Source of the DNA: Haloarcula laminariae
Lineage (GTDB): Archaea; Halobacteriota; Halobacteria; Halobacteriales; Haloarculaceae
Direction: 5' to 3'
DNA length: 64,000 bases
Assembly: GCF_025457605.1 (NCBI RefSeq)
Contig: NZ_JAMZFY010000001.1
Span: forward strand, 1,798,001 to 1,862,000
The number at the start of each line of letters is the position of its first letter. Within the stretch, counting starts at the first letter, position 1. Under the pieces are notes generated by a model that ran no database searches, was not told where the DNA came from, and saw nothing but the letters and a program-made list of their open reading frames with translations. Position numbers and translations under genes: made by a program. Of this stretch, positions 4,628 to 58,812 are shown in pieces.

Positions 4628-4676
4628 CAGCGGCGCGAGATGCGCTGTCGGCGCTCAGCTGGCGGTACAGATGCAA

Positions 4677-5402
4677 TCAGGCGGTTTCGCTTGCGTACTT
4701 CTCGTCGTATGCGTCCACGAGGCTCAGCACGGTCTCGGTGCTCTCGCCGCGGACGATATAGACCTCTTCAGTCGCGTCGCCGCTATCGGTCCCGGTGTGT
4801 GAGCCCGCACCTATCACATATGCGTCGCCAGCGTACACATCGAACGTGACCGCGTTGTCGCCCACCTCGGTCTGGGACTGCCGGGTCGGCTCCTCGACAT
4901 CGACGAAGAACTCTACCATGGAATCTATCAGCGACTCCCCGAATCCGTCCTCGACGACGAACAGTAGCTGGTCCCCGTCCTCCGTATCCGTCGGCCAACC
5001 GATAATCTCCGTCGTCGGCTGGTCGCCGCTGTCCGACGTGACGCTCGTCTGTGAGGACAGGAACGTCGGCGTCACCGAAATCGATTCGGACTGATAGCTT
5101 TGTCTGACCTCCCGTTCGTACTGGAACGGTGACTCGGAGGTGTTCTGCGTCGTCCCCTGTTGGTTCTGGCCGGTTTGCTCCGGAGTCTCGACCGCCCCGT
5201 CATCGATGAGAGAGTAGCCGACCCCGGCGACTGCACCTACCGCGGCCAAACTGCTGAGGAGGGTGCGCCGGGAGACCGTCGCGCCACCGGCGTCGGCGCC
5301 AGATTGGTCCGCGGTGCCGGTACGGTCCCCGGCAGCGTCACGCTGTGACTGGTCGGCAGGCTCGTCTCGGCTCTCGTCGGCTGTATTGGGTCGGTCTGTC
5401 AT
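4677..5402 (-). CDS. Tat-exported protein paired with the LamG protein
   Basis: A 241-residue protein of unknown function. A charged, Ser/Asp-rich 44-residue N-region precedes a twin-arginine signal (VSRRTLLSS, Arg45-Arg46) and a hydrophobic stretch to about residue 64. No lipobox Cys follows, so the span is cleaved or stays as a membrane anchor. A Gln/Thr/Ser-rich linker (about 70-90) leads into a beta-rich domain of about 150 residues. Its ATG overlaps the stop of the double-LamG gene (TAATG), so the two are almost certainly cotranscribed and coupled. GC content is lower than in flanking genes. Confidence 0.75.
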   Translation of the reverse strand: MTDRPNTADESRDEPADQSQRDAAGDRTGTADQSGADAGGATVSRRTLLSSLAAVGAVAGVGYSLIDDGAVETPEQTGQNQQGTTQNTSESPFQYEREVRQSYQSESISVTPTFLSSQTSVTSDSGDQPTTEIIGWPTDTEDGDQLLFVVEDGFGESLIDSMVEFFVDVEEPTRQSQTEVGDNAVTFDVYAGDAYVIGAGSHTGTDSGDATEEVYIVRGESTETVLSLVDAYDEKYASETA

Positions 5403-8356
5403 TAGTAGTCGAACGTTGATTGTGGCCCGTACTCCTCGTAGTTCAGCGAGTCCTGGTAGTTGTCCAGTCCGCGACCAAAGCTTGCGCCGACGGCCGCCGC
5501 GGTGTACTGGCTCAGATTGAGCCACGTGCTCCCGTTGTCTTCCCACTCCTGGGCGTTCGTCTCCGCCCCGAGCGCCGCATCGTAGCCGTCACCCAGCGCT
5601 CCGGAAGAGAGGTCCTCGTACGTCTTGCTGATTCCGTAGCTGGCACTGGCCTCGATCTGGTAGTCGACCTGCCTGAGCGCCAGCATTCTGAGGATTCCCG
5701 ACGGACCGATACTGTAGTTGTTCACGAGCGTTTCCAGCCCGATCAGCTTGTTGAGCAGCGGTTGTTGGGCGCCTGCCGCGGCTTTCCCAATAGCTGCGAT
5801 CTCGGATTGTGCTTCCGCCGCGTTACTGACCCCTTCGACCGCGATAGAGATAGCCGCGGTCGCAAGGACGGTGAAGCCGGTGCTTTTGAGGTCGGTCGAA
5901 CTGCTGATAGAATTCATACCGACGCTCGTGTGGATACTGTCCGCCTGCCGGAACACCTCCACAACCGTCGCTGCGCTCTCGGCGATTGTTTTCACATCAT
6001 CGACACGCTCGTACGCCTGCAAAGTCGATTGGGCGATATCAACCGCCGGGCTACTGATGTTTTCGAGCGATTCGGTGGCCTCCGGGACCTGATTCTCCGC
6101 CCATTCGAGTGAGGCACTCGCGCCGCCGATGTTAGCGAACACTTCGTGGTACGGTCGGTTGAAGTCTTGTTGGCCCCAATCAAACGTGGTAACCGCGAGG
6201 TCGAGGACCTGTACCGCCGAGGCCTTCGTATCGACAGCGCCCAACGCCAGGACGCCGCTTAGCTTCGTAAAGAGGTTCGCGGTCCGCGCCAACTGCTCCG
6301 CGTCCTCCCACTTCTCGTACTCTTTTCTCACGGATTCGAGACGCGCCTGCGAGTCGTAGGGGTATTCTTCGCAGTACCGATAGCTGATTGCAACGCTGGC
6401 AGCCCGCTCGGGTTCCAATAGCTCGTACGACGTCGTGGTAAAGGCGTATCGGTCGTCCGGCTCCTCGGGTATCTGGTCGAGGACGTAATGGTCCTCGCCC
6501 TCCAGAGTGACTGTGGCGAGGCGGTTCGCGTCCCGGAGCCGGTCGCTACTGTCGGTGGCTGTCGCCGGCGTACTGGTGGGCGTCTCGCTGGACTGGAGCG
6601 TGATAGACCGCGTCGCGACGTGGTCATCGGTGACGACACTGATAGTCCGGTCGCCCGTCTCCGAGCTTTCGAGGTTCCATGTCAGGGTAACTGTGTCTGT
6701 CGCGCCTGCCCCGAGGGTGACCTCCGTCTCGTCCAGTTCGGTACCGGACGAGCGCTCCAAGGTGACCAGCTGCGTTCCGTCGGCGTCACCCGTATTCTCC
6801 ACCTCGGCCGTGACGCTGACTTCGGTTCCCGCCGTAACCGGCGCGTTGGTGGAGACGATATCCACGGCGAAGGTCGCACTCGCCTGGGCACTGTTCGTGT
6901 ATATCTCTCTCACCTCGTCGCCCGACAGCTGGCCGTCGTAGATGCGGAGGTCCGAAAGCTTGCCGACCAGCAGATCGTACCAGTCGGGACTGCTTGTTCC
7001 GTACCAGCTTCCTATCGTCTGGTGAGACCAGTAGTTCGTGTTCCGGGGGCTGTACCCGGAGAGGTCGTCGTCGTGAAACGCCTCCGCGCCGTCGATATAA
7101 CAGGTCAGATAGTCGGCCGCGTTGACGACGAGCGCGAGGTGGTGCCACTCTCCCGTCGTGACGTGTAGCTCCGCGTCAGTGGCATCGTCCGTGGTGTAGG
7201 ACTCGCCCTCCCCCAGGGAACTAATACCGAACCGTATCTCGACTGACCCGCTGGTGTCAGCCGCCGGGAGGGCCTCGAGGACGTACTCCGCGTCGTTTCG
7301 CAAGATGTGATGGTCCGCCGGTGAGTTGTTCGGGCTCCCCCCTTCCGTGCTATCGAAATACAGCCAGCCGGTGACGGTGACAGGTCCGTGCTCCCGTTCT
7401 ACGATGCTGAGTTCGGGGTTGTCGCTTCCGGAGCCGACGAGAAGCCCGTCGTCCCCGTCCATCGCGACCCCGGCCCGGCCGTGATATCTCCCGACCGTGG
7501 GGTCGCCCTGGCCGATGGACGCATCGGCGTCGCCGACTGTATCGTCGAACCCGTTCGCAAACGGCCAGCGGGCGACGAGGTCGTCGGCTCTGACGATACC
7601 GCTATCGGCCTTCGGAGCGGTCTCCCGGTAGACCTGCTGAATCTGTGGCTCGTCTATGCCCGGTTGGTACACCCGCAGGTCGGCGAGTTTGCCCCGCATC
7701 AGATGGCCCCACTCCTCGGGATTGCCGCCGTACCAACTGCCAATCGTCACGTCGGTCCAGAAGTCGGAACTGGACTCGTTGTACCCGTCCATCTGGTCGT
7801 CGGTGAACGCCACCTCCCCGTCGACGTATATCTCCAGGCGTTCGCCCGGCGTGACCAGAAACGCGAGGTGATGCCACTCGTCTACCGGGACGGTGACTTC
7901 GTCTTCGTCGGCCATGCTATAGCCGTTGGCGTCTCCATCGCTGTAGGGGCTGATGCTGAGCCGAACGCCGACGCCGGAGCCGGATTCCGCTTCGCGCCCG
8001 ACGATGCGGACTCCGGTGTCGTTCCGGTAGAGACTGTGGCTCGCCGCCGACTCCCCGGACGGGTCGTTCCCGGTTTCGGAGTCGAAATACGCCCACATGG
8101 TGATACAGAACCGGGGTTGGTCCGCGCCACAGAGGTCCAGCTCCCCATGGCCGCCCCTGCTCGCCCGGAGCGCGTCAGTCCCATCGAAGGCCACGCAGTC
8201 GCGACCGCTGTGGCGTTCTATCGACGGTGAGTCTCTGGCTGCTGTCGCGTCGTTACCTCCGGCGACATCGGCGAAACCGTCGCTGAAAGGCCATCTGCTC
8301 ACCAGGTTCTCTTCCCCGACCACCGCTGTCTGCGTCGATGCCGTATCCATGAGCAC
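5402..8356 (-). CDS. Large double-LamG protein with CARDB-like and helical domains
   Basis: A 984-residue protein. Two LamG/concanavalin-type lectin domains lie at about residues 18-225 and 255-490; each has the EWHHLA(F/L)VV motif, a (D/G)(Y/I)xxDG(E/A) strand and an IGSWYG strand. A CARDB-like Ig domain (about 495-590) and a short Thr/Ser/Pro linker follow. The last 370 residues or so are mostly helical with Ala-rich stretches. LamG domains normally bind carbohydrate outside the cell, yet no signal peptide or membrane span is visible at the N-terminus (MLMDTASTQT). The gene is coupled to the Tat-exported protein downstream. GC is lower than in neighbours. Function unknown; adhesion or glycan recognition is inferred. 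An ATG two codons in is also possible. Confidence 0.82.
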   Translation of the reverse strand: MLMDTASTQTAVVGEENLVSRWPFSDGFADVAGGNDATAARDSPSIERHSGRDCVAFDGTDALRASRGGHGELDLCGADQPRFCITMWAYFDSETGNDPSGESAASHSLYRNDTGVRIVGREAESGSGVGVRLSISPYSDGDANGYSMADEDEVTVPVDEWHHLAFLVTPGERLEIYVDGEVAFTDDQMDGYNESSSDFWTDVTIGSWYGGNPEEWGHLMRGKLADLRVYQPGIDEPQIQQVYRETAPKADSGIVRADDLVARWPFANGFDDTVGDADASIGQGDPTVGRYHGRAGVAMDGDDGLLVGSGSDNPELSIVEREHGPVTVTGWLYFDSTEGGSPNNSPADHHILRNDAEYVLEALPAADTSGSVEIRFGISSLGEGESYTTDDATDAELHVTTGEWHHLALVVNAADYLTCYIDGAEAFHDDDLSGYSPRNTNYWSHQTIGSWYGTSSPDWYDLLVGKLSDLRIYDGQLSGDEVREIYTNSAQASATFAVDIVSTNAPVTAGTEVSVTAEVENTGDADGTQLVTLERSSGTELDETEVTLGAGATDTVTLTWNLESSETGDRTISVVTDDHVATRSITLQSSETPTSTPATATDSSDRLRDANRLATVTLEGEDHYVLDQIPEEPDDRYAFTTTSYELLEPERAASVAISYRYCEEYPYDSQARLESVRKEYEKWEDAEQLARTANLFTKLSGVLALGAVDTKASAVQVLDLAVTTFDWGQQDFNRPYHEVFANIGGASASLEWAENQVPEATESLENISSPAVDIAQSTLQAYERVDDVKTIAESAATVVEVFRQADSIHTSVGMNSISSSTDLKSTGFTVLATAAISIAVEGVSNAAEAQSEIAAIGKAAAGAQQPLLNKLIGLETLVNNYSIGPSGILRMLALRQVDYQIEASASYGISKTYEDLSSGALGDGYDAALGAETNAQEWEDNGSTWLNLSQYTAAAVGASFGRGLDNYQDSLNYEEYGPQSTFDY

Positions 8357-8581
8357 GTTGTGAAGTCGTAGTCGGATTCAGCGGCCCCGTCCATATCAGG
8401 GTACAAATTAGCGATTTGAAAAACGTGTTGGTTGAAACAACATACTCCACACGTGTCAGTGGCCGTGAGTTGGGGAGCCACTGGCTATGAAACAGCCAGG
8501 CCGGCGACGGACCCGACGAACGATTGGCGGTCTCAGTTCGGTCGGTACAGAGAGCTCAAATGTCGCTTTAGAAGATTGGAT
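8357..8581. other. AT-richer intergenic spacer upstream of the LamG gene
   Basis: A 225-bp spacer, clearly richer in A/T than its surroundings. It holds a 6-bp inverted repeat (CTGGCT...AGCCAG) around 8480-8505 and an A/T-rich patch at 8400-8415 that may be the LamG promoter on the minus strand. No convincing gene is seen here. Confidence 0.4.
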
Positions 8582-8752
8582 CTATAACGCCTGTTTGAAT
8601 TCCACGAGTGCAAACACAACGGCAATAGCTCCGAATGCTACACCAATCGCACCTAAAAGCTGATTTCGCGGAACAACAGTCGTCTGTGAGACGGTCAGCA
8701 GTGCCAGCAATATAACGTGGAGGGCAAGCAATCGATCTGTCCGGTCAGACAT
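8582..8752 (-). CDS. Very small membrane protein (56 residues)
   Basis: Encodes MSDRTDRLL followed by two hydrophobic segments (about residues 8-22 and 31-50) separated by a short polar turn, with a charged C-terminus. The topology resembles small haloarchaeal two-span proteins of unknown function. Its GC content is close to 50 percent, much lower than the window average, like the adjacent LamG pair. The start was chosen at the ATG that begins the polar N-region, with an AATATT box about 32 bp upstream at 8782-8787. Further upstream in frame the sequence is not protein-like. Confidence 0.6.
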   Translation of the reverse strand: MSDRTDRLLALHVILLALLTVSQTTVVPRNQLLGAIGVAFGAIAVVFALVEFKQAL

Positions 8753-8884
8753 ATGACGAATCCATGGCGATTCAGTAAAGAAATATTCGATTACTACGTA
8801 CTCAAACCACCCAAGCAAGTCAATCGTACCTCGGGGAACGGAGCGATGCCGGACGCCGCTCGACACGGTTCTCGTTTCCGCCGT

Positions 8885-36827: not shown

Positions 36828-37391
36828 ATGCGAGGCACAGATGACCCGTTGTCGATGAATCGACGTTCAGTTGTCGCGGCCGTCGGCTTTGCGGCTATCA
36901 CCGGAATCTCTGGCTGTCTCGGCAGTGACGACTCCGGCGAGGGCGAAACCGCGGTACCGGACACGAGTACGGAAACTGAAACCGCCGGGGCTACACCGAC
37001 AGAGCCCGCTACTGCTGGCTCCACGCCGACCGAGTCCGCGACCGACGCCACACAGACCGAGGTGACGACGGCGTCTCCCGGCGAAAGCGGGATAGTCGCT
37101 GTCGTCGATAACTACCTTCAGGCGTTCGATGCCGGGGACTACGACGGAATACTTGCGCTCACCCATTCGGAGGGGCCGGAAGAGGAATCAGTTCGGGAGG
37201 TCGGCGAGTCGAGTATCCAATCTCTCGGTGACCAGTACACGTTCGAACTGGTCGAGGCGACTGTGGTCTCGAACAGTGCCGGCGAGGCGACTGTCGACGT
37301 CACCTACACCAGAAGCGACGAAACAGTTGAGCGAGATGTGGAACTCCGAACAGAATCGGGCGTATGGAAAATCTGGGAGGACGACGCCTGA
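36828..37391 (+). CDS. Tat lipoprotein with small NTF2-like domain
   Basis: A 187-residue exported lipoprotein. Twin arginines (NRRSVVAAV, Arg12-Arg13) and a lipobox ending ISGC (Cys30) are followed by a Thr/Glu/Pro-rich linker of about 55 residues (repeated TPTE/TPTES). The C-terminal 95 residues (VVDNYLQAFDAGDYDGILAL through TVERDVELRTESGVWKIWED) look like an NTF2/DUF4878-type cone. Such domains occur in periplasm-facing lipoproteins of unknown ligand. The leaderless promoter supports the ATG at 36828 rather than the later ATG at MNRRS. Its GC content is lower than that of its neighbours. Confidence 0.78.
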   Translation: MRGTDDPLSMNRRSVVAAVGFAAITGISGCLGSDDSGEGETAVPDTSTETETAGATPTEPATAGSTPTESATDATQTEVTTASPGESGIVAVVDNYLQAFDAGDYDGILALTHSEGPEEESVREVGESSIQSLGDQYTFELVEATVVSNSAGEATVDVTYTRSDETVERDVELRTESGVWKIWEDDA

Positions 37392-37474
37392 GAGCGGAAG
37401 GGCACACCATCGCTTACGCTGGGCCGATGTCGAGACAGGCCCTATATCAGAGTGAGCGAGGGAGGGAAGGCGGA

Positions 37475-38188
37475 TTACACCTGTTCAGCCAGGGCCCGCA
37501 ACGCGTCGCTCCCCCCGGTCAACAGCGGGTCGCCGTGCCCCATCGCGGCCACGTCGAAGGCCGGAATCCGGTCGGCGAGGGCACCGATGTTCGTTCGGAG
37601 CTCGTCCATGTCGTAGGAGTCGCCCCAGAACGGCGTCGTCAGGCCGCCGTCGTCGCCCGCCCACACCAGGTCGCCGAGAAACGCCGCCGAGGCGTCCGCG
37701 TGGTGGTAGACCACGTGGCCCGGGTTGTGCCCCGGCGTGTGGTAGGCGGTGAAACCGCCGACGGTGTCGCCGTCGTCCAGCGGTTCGAGTGTGAGCTCCG
37801 GCAGCGGAAAGAGCCGGCGGCTCGCCCGGTGAAAGAGCCCCTTGTGGTGGAGCAGTGCCGGTTCGGCACGCCCCGCCAGCAGGTCGAGGTCGTCACGACC
37901 CACGGAGACCGGACCGTCGAACGCCGGGACGAGCCGGTTCAGCCCGCCGACGTGGTCGAGGTCGTAGTGGGTGAGCAGCACGCGGTCGAGGTCGGTCGGG
38001 CCGTACCCCACAGCATCGAGTTCGTCGCCGATAGTGGGTCTGTTCCACCACAGGCCGGTGTCGACGAGCGTGAGCGCGTCGCCGTCGCCCCCGACCGCCC
38101 GCTCGTCGACGAGGTAGGCGTTCGAGGCCAGCGGCGGGAACAGGCCGAGCTCCAGTAGCCACACGCCCGGCCTGAGTTCCCTGACCAT
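37475..38188 (-). CDS. MBL-fold hydrolase (glyoxalase II-like)
   Basis: A 237-residue metallo-beta-lactamase fold protein. The binding motif THYDLDHVGGLN (about residues 71-82) is HxxxDH; later ligand segments are YHTPGHNPGHVVYH and FLGDLVW. The overall layout matches the glyoxalase II-like/hydrolase group, but the reaction is not determined by sequence. The start was chosen at MVRELRPG, just ahead of the first strand. It is in a run of minus-strand genes with the SRPBCC and Elp3 genes upstream. Confidence 0.87.
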   Translation of the reverse strand: MVRELRPGVWLLELGLFPPLASNAYLVDERAVGGDGDALTLVDTGLWWNRPTIGDELDAVGYGPTDLDRVLLTHYDLDHVGGLNRLVPAFDGPVSVGRDDLDLLAGRAEPALLHHKGLFHRASRRLFPLPELTLEPLDDGDTVGGFTAYHTPGHNPGHVVYHHADASAAFLGDLVWAGDDGGLTTPFWGDSYDMDELRTNIGALADRIPAFDVAAMGHGDPLLTGGSDALRALAEQV

Positions 38189-56985: not shown

Positions 56986-58812
56986 ATGGAAACAGACCCG
57001 CCACCAACCGATATCGACGGCACGATGTCCCGACGGACGATGCTGAAACTCGCCGGCATCGCCGCCGCAACGACCGGGACGGCCGGCTGTCTCTGGCAGT
57101 CGGACTCGTCGGCGGACCGGCTCGGCTACGGCGGCGTCCCGTGGCGACTCGACGGCGGGGTGCCGGCGGCGTTGCTCGCCACGAACGCGCTCTCGCTCGT
57201 CGGCCCCACCGGCGGGCTGGTCGGCCACTGGCCCCTCGACGGGAGCGGCGACACCGCCGCCGACGTGGCCGGCGGCAACGACGGCGCCGTCCGCGGGACC
57301 CCTGAACAGGGGGTGGCGGGCGTCTACGATACGACTGGGTACGCGTTCGGCAGCGGTGCCGACGACTTCGTCGAGGTCGCGGACGCGGGGGCGTTGACGC
57401 CGACGGCGGCGCTGTCCTTCGGCGGATGGTTCCGGACAACGAGCGGCGCGAACGAGCAGACGGTGCTCCAGAAGGCCGACGCCCGCTACGGCGAGACGGG
57501 CTACGCCGTCGACGTGCAGACGCCCAACAGCCTCCGGGCCCACGTCGGCGTCGAGAGCGGACGGGCGTCGGCCAACGCCTTCGGCCTCGACACGCACGAC
57601 GGCGAGTGGCACCACGTCTGCTGTACGTGGGTCGGGTCGCGGCTGGTCATGTATCTCGACGGCGAGGAGGTCGACCGCGACAGCTCGCAGTCGGGCGATG
57701 TCGTCCACAGCGACAGACCGCTGTACATCGGTTACGGCGACAACGGCTACACCAGCTACTACGCGATGGACGGCGCCATCGACGACGTGCGGGTCTACGA
57801 CCGCGCGCTCGATAGCGGCGACGTCGCGGACCTCTACGGGGGCGTCGAGACTACCACACCGACGCCGACCGGGACCGCTACGCCCACGCCGACACCGACC
57901 GAGACGGCCACACCGACGCCAACTCCCACACCGACCCAGACCGCTACACCCACGCCCACGCCAACGGCAACACCTACGCCGACACCGACTCCAACACCCA
58001 CGCCGACACCGACGCCAACGCCCACACCGACGGAGCCGTCGACGCGGCCCACTCCGGTGGCCCGCTGGGCGTTCGCGGAGACCGGCGGGACGACGGTGGC
58101 CGACAGCGCCGGGAGCAACGACGGCTTCGTCCGCGGTTCGCCGACACTGGACACCGCGGGGGTGTTCGACACTTCGGGCATCGCCGTCGGCCCCGAGGAC
58201 TACGTCGAGATACCTGACGCGGGGGCGCTGACGCCGACGGCGGCACTGTCTTTCGGCGGGTGGTACCGAACTACGAGCGGCGCAAACGAGCAGACGGTGC
58301 TCCAGAAGGCCGACGCCCGCTACGGCGAGGCGGGCTACGCTGTCGACGTGCAGACGCCCAACAGCCTCCGGGCCCACGTCGGCGTCGAGAGCGGGCGGGC
58401 GAGCGTGAACCCGAGCGTCGCGACCCACGACGGCGAGTGGCACCACGTCTGCTGTACGTGGGACGGCGCGGCGCTGGTCATGTATCTCGACGGCGAGGAA
58501 GTCGACCGCGACGGCTCGCAGTCCGGCACCGTGGTTCCCAGCGGGCGCTCGCTGTACGTCGGCTACGGCGACAACGGCTACACCAGCTACTACCCGATGG
58601 ACGGCGCCATCGACGACGTGCGCGTCTACGACGTGGCGCTGACCGCCGACCAGGTGGGCGCGCTGGTCGCGGACATCACGACCGAGGACCCGACGCCCAC
58701 GCCGACGGAGACCGACACGGCGACCGCGACGCCGATTCCGAGCGCCGAGTTCGGCGAGCGCGGCTACGGGAGCTACGGCTACGGCGGCGCGACGGACGGA
58801 GACACCCAATGA
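56986..58812 (+). CDS. Double-LamG Tat lipoprotein
   Basis: A 608-residue exported lipoprotein. The Tat motif MSRRTML (Arg16-Arg17) is followed by lipobox TAGC (Cys35). LamG domain 1 spans about 78-285 and domain 2 about 355-560, both with FGGW(F/Y)RTTSGANEQTVLQKADARYGE and CTWxGxxLVMYLDGEEVDRD. They are joined by a Pro-Thr linker of about 60 residues (repeated TPTP) and followed by a second short Pro-Thr tail and a Tyr/Gly-rich end. The domains are nearly identical at DNA level, so they arose by recent duplication. It probably binds glycans outside the cell. It overlaps the beta-helix gene by ATGA. Confidence 0.85.
   Translation: METDPPPTDIDGTMSRRTMLKLAGIAAATTGTAGCLWQSDSSADRLGYGGVPWRLDGGVPAALLATNALSLVGPTGGLVGHWPLDGSGDTAADVAGGNDGAVRGTPEQGVAGVYDTTGYAFGSGADDFVEVADAGALTPTAALSFGGWFRTTSGANEQTVLQKADARYGETGYAVDVQTPNSLRAHVGVESGRASANAFGLDTHDGEWHHVCCTWVGSRLVMYLDGEEVDRDSSQSGDVVHSDRPLYIGYGDNGYTSYYAMDGAIDDVRVYDRALDSGDVADLYGGVETTTPTPTGTATPTPTPTETATPTPTPTPTQTATPTPTPTATPTPTPTPTPTPTPTPTPTPTEPSTRPTPVARWAFAETGGTTVADSAGSNDGFVRGSPTLDTAGVFDTSGIAVGPEDYVEIPDAGALTPTAALSFGGWYRTTSGANEQTVLQKADARYGEAGYAVDVQTPNSLRAHVGVESGRASVNPSVATHDGEWHHVCCTWDGAALVMYLDGEEVDRDGSQSGTVVPSGRSLYVGYGDNGYTSYYPMDGAIDDVRVYDVALTADQVGALVADITTEDPTPTPTETDTATATPIPSAEFGERGYGSYGYGGATDGDTQ
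57845..58045 (+). repeat. Pro-Thr coding microsatellite
   Basis: Short degenerate units of ACNCCNACN repeat through about 190 bp between the two LamG domains, encoding alternating Thr-Pro. Such tracts are prone to length change by slippage. Confidence 0.65.

Follow-up and report, generated by a model that had tools for sequence, protein, structure and literature searches.

A signal-less LamG protein and its twin-arginine partner in Haloarcula laminariae: a candidate case of hitchhiker export

The 64,000-nucleotide stretch of Haloarcula laminariae DNA analyzed here (positions 1,798,001 to 1,862,000 of contig NZ_JAMZFY010000001.1; hereafter the window, from whose first letter all coordinates are counted) carries on its minus strand two overlapping genes, here called A and B. 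Gene A encodes a large protein with two LamG domains and no export signal, and gene B a small partner with a signal of the twin-arginine translocation (Tat) type. A may be an exchangeable surface-recognition protein that is exported by hitchhiking on B, a reading in which about even confidence is placed. Hitchhiker export of an A-B complex is favored because the two genes appear to be co-translated, the Tat motif is invariant on B and most A proteins have none, and also because the heads and composition of A are of the extracellular type and one homologue of A carries a Tat-like signal of its own.

The A-B pair and the distribution of its export signals

The following features define the pair in the window:

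5402-8356, minus strand: gene A, LamG-LamG-CARDB-helical protein without export signal (984 residues from GTG at 8356, or 982 from ATG at 8350)
8378-8380, minus strand: in-frame TGA seven codons ahead of the GTG, which closes the reading frame of gene A on its upstream side
7640-8113, minus strand: first LamG domain of A (Laminin_G_3, 43.0 bits)
6911-7393, minus strand: second LamG domain of A (Laminin_G_3, 55.2 bits)
6620-6865, minus strand: CARDB domain of A (Pfam), residues 496-577, followed by a Ser/Thr-rich linker
5405-6580, minus strand: conserved helical C-terminal region of A, with linker, which defines the family; no notable Pfam, PHROG or PDB relative
4677-5402, minus strand: gene B, 241-residue partner with an n-region of about 44 residues, a twin arginine and hydrophobic stretch, and then a mixed strand/helix domain (low-confidence model)
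5400-5404, minus strand: TAATG, the stop codon of A overlapping the start codon of B
5265-5270, minus strand: invariant twin arginine of B, residues 45-46

An earlier sequence-only reading of this DNA had described A as a 984-residue protein with two LamG domains, a CARDB-like domain and a helical region, lacking an export signal, and this description was borne out. The first 60 residues contain no twin arginine and no hydrophobic stretch, the maximum 17-residue hydropathy being 0.27. A missed upstream start, which that reading had named as the finding that would overturn a signal-less A, was rejected, since the TGA at 8380-8378 closes the frame and leaves no in-frame start possible. In Pfam, A matched Laminin_G_3 (PF13385; 82.4 bits in two units, cut-off 27.6) and CARDB (PF07705; 29.1 bits, cut-off 22.7), and its C-terminal 380 residues or so were without a match in the same search; the secondary structure of a low-confidence model makes this part mostly helical. 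On a scale of Ser/Thr/Asn/Gln/Gly minus Glu/Lys/Arg, A ranks fifth among the 42 window proteins, and the other four of the top five, B among them, are Tat-positive by a simple rule. This genome yielded only one further LamG gene (56986-58812 of the window), which encodes a double-LamG Tat lipoprotein, and the nearest relative of the LamG part of A, at about 40% identity, is a protein of Haloarcula taiwanensis pNYT2. Both share Laminin_G_3 domains with A but, unlike it, have their own Tat-lipobox signal and neither helical end nor partner.

The coupling of B to A by TAATG and the Tat signal of B, also described earlier, were both recovered: the genes overlap, and the twin arginine of B is followed by 20 uncharged, mildly hydrophobic residues, and the sequence shows neither a lipobox nor a clear cleavage site. 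Searches for known relatives gave little. No family was found in Pfam, NCBIfam, PHROGs or PADLOC for the helical end of A or for B, a single PHROG of unknown function (expectation value, E, 0.0019) being hit by one of eight family members only; phage and viral collections gave no match; and PDB profile searches returned nothing convincing (best E 0.75 for the end of A, 0.06 for B). AlphaFold models, built from 3 aligned sequences each, had mean pLDDT (the predicted local distance difference test) of 34 and 38, too poor to use.

Searched with the C-terminal part of A, 7 of 391 genomes of the class gave a hit, with one copy each, and a profile search found the same 7; a family-level search (4/146 genomes) added G418, and an order-level search (6/392) returned only genomes already known. 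The three samples overlap and the first look of the search was loose, so that these genome counts are lower bounds. The helical end of A together with B makes up a rare two-gene family, found in eight haloarchaeal genomes, namely that of the window (G000), Halobacteriaceae archaeon SHR40 (G268), Halorubrum vacuolatum DSM 8800 (G348), G165, G336, G124, G121 and G418. The search in other haloarchaea and plasmids proposed by the sequence-only reading also led to a plasmid of Natrialbaceae archaeon CCL63, with two copies of the pair whose A-B part is 99.9-100% identical in DNA to that of SHR40, a near-identity that points to recent exchange.

A is followed by B, with overlapping stop and start (by 1, 4 or 8 nucleotides), at all eight loci. 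The B proteins are 18-26% identical to that of the window, and in 8/8 the twin arginine is invariant and precedes an uncharged hydrophobic stretch of 14-24 residues; the other invariant columns are P137, D144 and R218. The n-region is about 40 residues long in the B proteins of the window, SHR40 and G348, and five of the eight have just 2-4 residues before the twin arginine. Distances among A and among B proteins correlate weakly (r 0.46, permutation P 0.02, 8 loci). A single-sequence search with B gave hits in 14/391 genomes, of which only G268 and G348, besides the window, have the hit at an A/B locus; the other 11 genomes had weak hits (E 1e-5 to 1e-3) located elsewhere, which were dropped.

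The N-termini of A, read from stop to stop, carry no export signal in six of eight cases (window, G165, G336, G124, G121 and G418). The A of G348 shows a weak stretch at its N-terminus, with one arginine only, which brings those lacking a Tat-like N-terminus to 7/8. The A of SHR40 and CCL63 carries RRDLLK and then a short uncharged stretch, a Tat-like N-terminus that would place this A outside the cell. This pattern agrees with a signal that may be placed on either partner. The heads vary as well: LamG-LamG-CARDB in the window, GLUG repeats in SHR40, DUF6923/DUF4394 in G165, a PQQ propeller in G418, nothing beyond a lectin match under threshold in G348, and no Pfam match in G336, G124 and G121. 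Head-to-head BLAST among the eight gave a single weak hit (E 0.067). By these comparisons, the LamG head is the exchangeable part, and the helical end plus B the conserved unit.

Linkage to a tubulin-like/P-loop/surface-protein operon

Genes for a tubulin-like protein, a P-loop protein, a surface protein, A and B follow one another in this order in SHR40, in both CCL63 plasmid copies and in G121. The tubulin-like proteins beside the pair match Tubulin_2 (E 3e-13 and 2e-13) and contain a coiled coil, the second gene encodes a multi-transmembrane (TM) P-loop protein, and the third a one-pass protein whose N-terminal domain is cytosolic (CARDB in SHR40). Since the tubulin-like proteins of the two A/B-linked operons are 30% identical, the shared five-gene order means that the link has either been retained over a long time or arisen on two occasions. 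On the CCL63 plasmid (L004, L093, L083), the two five-gene sets have frame breaks at different places, in the P-loop gene of one copy and in the tubulin-like, surface-protein and A genes of the other, perhaps through sequencing errors; the first A-B copy is DNA-identical to that of SHR40.

Twenty further loci of the three-gene core were examined, from 19 other genomes (L153 and L092 seem to be one plasmid). Of the three genes, the first two were present in 20/20, the third adjoined them in 17/20, and gene order was fixed. The core recurs across haloarchaea (L137-L153, L131-L133, L135, L090, L092), with a variable extracellular part in the surface protein, and all three genes were also found on a Methanohalobium plasmid. 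A tubulin-like protein is encoded in six of the eight pair genomes, Halorubrum vacuolatum DSM 8800 among them, adjoining the pair in two, and in 30 of the 232 sampled genomes. Co-occurrence (6/8 against 28/228) gave a Fisher P of 1.3e-4, with kinship ignored and four of the eight genomes coming from outside the sample; G124 is counted in this table as a sample member, though absent from the printed listing.

Membrane systems that combine tubulin-coiled-coil proteins, TM GTPases and fibronectin type III (FNIII) repeats have been described in bacteria (PMC7159879). The core at two A/B loci resembles these GTPase-centric conflict systems (DO-GTPase/GAP1, tubulin, FNIII) in having a tubulin-like coiled-coil protein, a multi-TM P-loop nucleoside triphosphatase (NTPase) and a one-pass protein with CARDB or immunoglobulin-like repeats. 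It differs in that DO-GTPase2 stays below its cut-off, GAP1 is without a match among the third-gene proteins scanned and the window genome lacks the core, and A/B-like genes are not mentioned in the parts of that source consulted. Specifically, four of nine P-loop proteins scanned scored 14-17 bits against PF19993 (DO-GTPase2; cut-off 27) and five gave nothing, which does not qualify them as DO-GTPases, and no GAP1 model was among the Pfam hits (E ≤ 0.05) of four third-gene proteins, whole neighborhoods not having been scanned. The link of the core to conflict systems is offered as a lead. Literature searches found no paper on the A/B pair or on the haloarchaeal core, and no functional study of tubulin-like/P-loop/surface operons from haloarchaea. 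On Halorubrum sp. BOL3-1 p117 (L092, 14-3101), the tubulin-like operon has Hsp70 and VWA genes nearby, reminiscent of the GTPase-centric systems of bacteria.

A proposed mechanism and its alternatives

Haloarchaea export most of their secreted proteins via Tat. In the mechanism proposed here, A is modular: an exchangeable N-terminal recognition head, which in the window consists of two LamG domains plus a CARDB spacer, precedes the conserved helical C-terminal domain. B would be translated from the overlapping stop codon of A. An uncleaved twin-arginine signal-anchor would hold B in the membrane with its globular domain outside. The helical domain of A most likely binds B in the cytoplasm; the folded A-B complex would then leave via the Tat pore on the signal of B alone, and A would end up at the cell surface, where it would bind or sense, a role suggested by the domains of its swappable head. 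Some genomes may use the pair in a membrane machine composed of the tubulin-like protein, the membrane P-loop NTPase and the one-pass surface protein; in the window genome, where this core is absent, the pair would stand alone. Hitchhiker export had been suggested by the sequence-only reading, and the suggestion has gained comparative support from the coupling (8/8), the twin arginine in B (8/8), the missing signal in A (6/8) and the composition of A, the export step itself being a prediction.

Tat hitchhiker export is established for Ni-Fe hydrogenases and formate dehydrogenases (PMC10924467). The A-B pair is like these hitchhikers in carrying the signal on one partner only, in co-encoding a signal-less partner and in having a membrane anchor in the complex (predicted here), and unlike them in that no cofactor enzyme is involved, the passenger being a modular recognition protein and the carrier an otherwise uncharacterized small protein. 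If the mechanism holds, Tat hitchhiking serves modular recognition proteins in archaea, beyond cofactor enzymes; signal-less proteins with a coupled downstream Tat partner belong in predicted haloarchaeal surface proteomes; and a handle is gained on the haloarchaeal tubulin-like/P-loop/surface operons. On a wider and rather doubtful proposal, A/B belongs to an archaeal surface machine not described so far, as its exported arm for recognition. The pair would act as a sensor with swappable heads, brought out in folded form on the Tat partner, and would signal across the membrane, via the one-pass surface protein, to the membrane P-loop NTPase and a tubulin-like polymer; stand-alone copies such as that of the window would be mobile arms without a core or with an unrecognized one.

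Several observations weigh against hitchhiker export or against the tie to the operon. The Tat-like signal on the A of SHR40 and CCL63 means that hitchhiking is not universal, and the starts of A in G165 and G418 are uncertain, the frame being open for 66 and 22 codons upstream, with no signal in the extra codons. Upstream of the window's A, an out-of-frame open reading frame (ORF; 8450-8253) encodes a short hydrophobic stretch without twin arginine, and could be joined to A only via a frameshift. Enrichment in N-glycosylation sequons failed as an export sign: A has 7 against 6.1 in shuffles, no overall enrichment, and the A proteins of G348, G165, G124, G121 and G418 fall below their shuffled counts. 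For B, the Pfam TAT_signal score is 16.2 bits, under the 22.7 cut-off, and the model reaches E ≤ 0.1 in just two of the eight B proteins; the 44-residue n-region ahead of the twin arginine is longer than usual. As to the operon, A/B stood beside the core in none of the 20 further loci, co-occurrence within the 232-genome sample alone was 2/4 against 28/228 (P 0.08), and neither the window genome nor G124 encodes a tubulin-like protein at E ≤ 1e-10, the tubulin association speaking in part against the reading. With that protein missing, the pair in the window genome works alone or with something else.

A might stay in the cytoplasm, as the sequence-only reading had also considered, docked on the inner face of the anchor or n-region of B, its heads binding intracellular ligands; the absence of a signal from six of eight A proteins would suit this, as would the n-regions of about 40 residues in the B proteins of the window, SHR40 and G348, which would remain inside. 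We consider it unlikely, however, given that five of the eight B proteins have just 2-4 residues before the twin arginine, that one A carries a Tat-like signal, that the composition of A is of the exported type and that the LamG proteins found besides A, one in this genome and one on pNYT2, are Tat lipoproteins. A cytoplasmic A is also at odds with the heads (LamG, GLUG and PQQ-type) and with the Ser/Thr/Pro linkers, which typically occur in exported proteins. An antagonism pair, with A toxin-like (its variable head binding a receptor and its helical domain acting on membranes) and B a membrane-anchored immunity protein, would account for the variable head on a conserved helical end, the moderate hydrophobicity of its helices (maximum 19-residue hydropathy 1.1-1.9 over the whole of A), the small membrane partner encoded alongside and the scattered distribution. 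Yet no toxin, immunity or defense domain for A or B was found in Pfam, NCBIfam or PADLOC, most A proteins lack a secretion signal of their own, and co-export explains the gene order and the invariant twin arginine equally well, which leaves antagonism distinctly improbable.

The operon link bears on another alternative, in which A would be an orphan surface adhesin unconnected with the tubulin-like operon, and adjacency and co-occurrence would have arisen via shared mobile elements. This overlaps the preferred explanation, export of A on B, which does not depend on the operon link. The absence of a tubulin-like protein from the window genome and G124, the 0/20 adjacency and the plasmid setting speak for such an adhesin, which is a tenable possibility, if a less than probable one, in the face of the same five-gene order in two operons with tubulin-like proteins just 30% identical and of the co-occurrence across genomes, for which kinship was ignored. 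Finally, A could be a pseudogene-like remnant whose signal was lost by decay or mis-annotation, as a recent insertion and the out-of-frame ORF at 8450-8253 might suggest. The frame of 982 codons is intact, however, GC content (guanine plus cytosine) at third codon positions (GC3) is well above that at the first and second (GC1, GC2), the upstream frames that were read contain no twin arginine, and A likewise lacks a signal at five other loci. The pseudogene reading, rejected on the intact frame and codon-position GC, is very improbable.

Insertion of the pair and its composition

Two further features describe the setting of the pair:

4628-8884, no strand assigned: inserted block of about 4.25 kb between a zincin gene (ends 4627) and a DUF7269-like gene (ends 8885); boundaries accurate to some tens of bases
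8582-8752, minus strand: 56-residue ORF within the inserted block, with GC 0.497 and conserved counterparts on other haloarchaeal plasmids

About 4.25 kb are inserted between the two convergent flanking genes, as judged from five close relatives (L050, L052-L055) in which the zincin gene is followed within about 30 nucleotides by the DUF7269-like gene, a label resting on a match under Pfam's cut-off, with no insert between them. The zincin gene was found in 32/32 genus genomes, and 30 of these loci entered the flank comparison, two others having come without DNA. Among the remaining loci, L051 lies near a contig end, 20 lack such a neighbor over 1.5 kb and one belongs to the window itself. At L056, L057 and L062, from other species of the genus, a different gene of about 1.1 kb occupies the site, which may be a repeated insertion spot. 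No target-site duplications, terminal repeats or tRNA were evident at the insert edges, and a promoter scan, based on a bacterial pattern, was uninformative here.

Horizontal acquisition of the pair, as had been proposed, is strongly supported by the empty sites in five relatives, the low GC3 and the presence of A/B in only 1/32 genus members. The lower GC than in the flanks, reaching about half in the ORF at 8582, was likewise confirmed: A has GC 0.627 and GC3 0.784, and B 0.635 and 0.777, against a mean GC3 of 0.892 (standard deviation 0.050) in the 40 other window genes. Composition equal to the rest of the window, which would have spoken against acquisition, was not seen. None of 1520 overlapping A-sized blocks of those 40 genes had GC3 ≤ 0.784 (minimum 0.813), and 48 of 1594 B-sized blocks had GC3 as low as that of B or lower. 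The synonymous codon divergence of A is 0.106, and among the 40 genes higher values occur only in those of ≤ 283 codons.

The 56-residue ORF has DNA matches of 74-78% on three plasmids and is probably a real gene, since these matches stay within its bounds to within a few bases. Protein identity is 73-87% on Halorhabdus, Haloterrigena, Natrinema and Natronorubrum plasmids, where the matched DNA carries no annotated feature. A second pocket of low GC3 (0.66 and 0.74) lies at 36828-38158 of the window, with a Tat-lipobox protein at its start.

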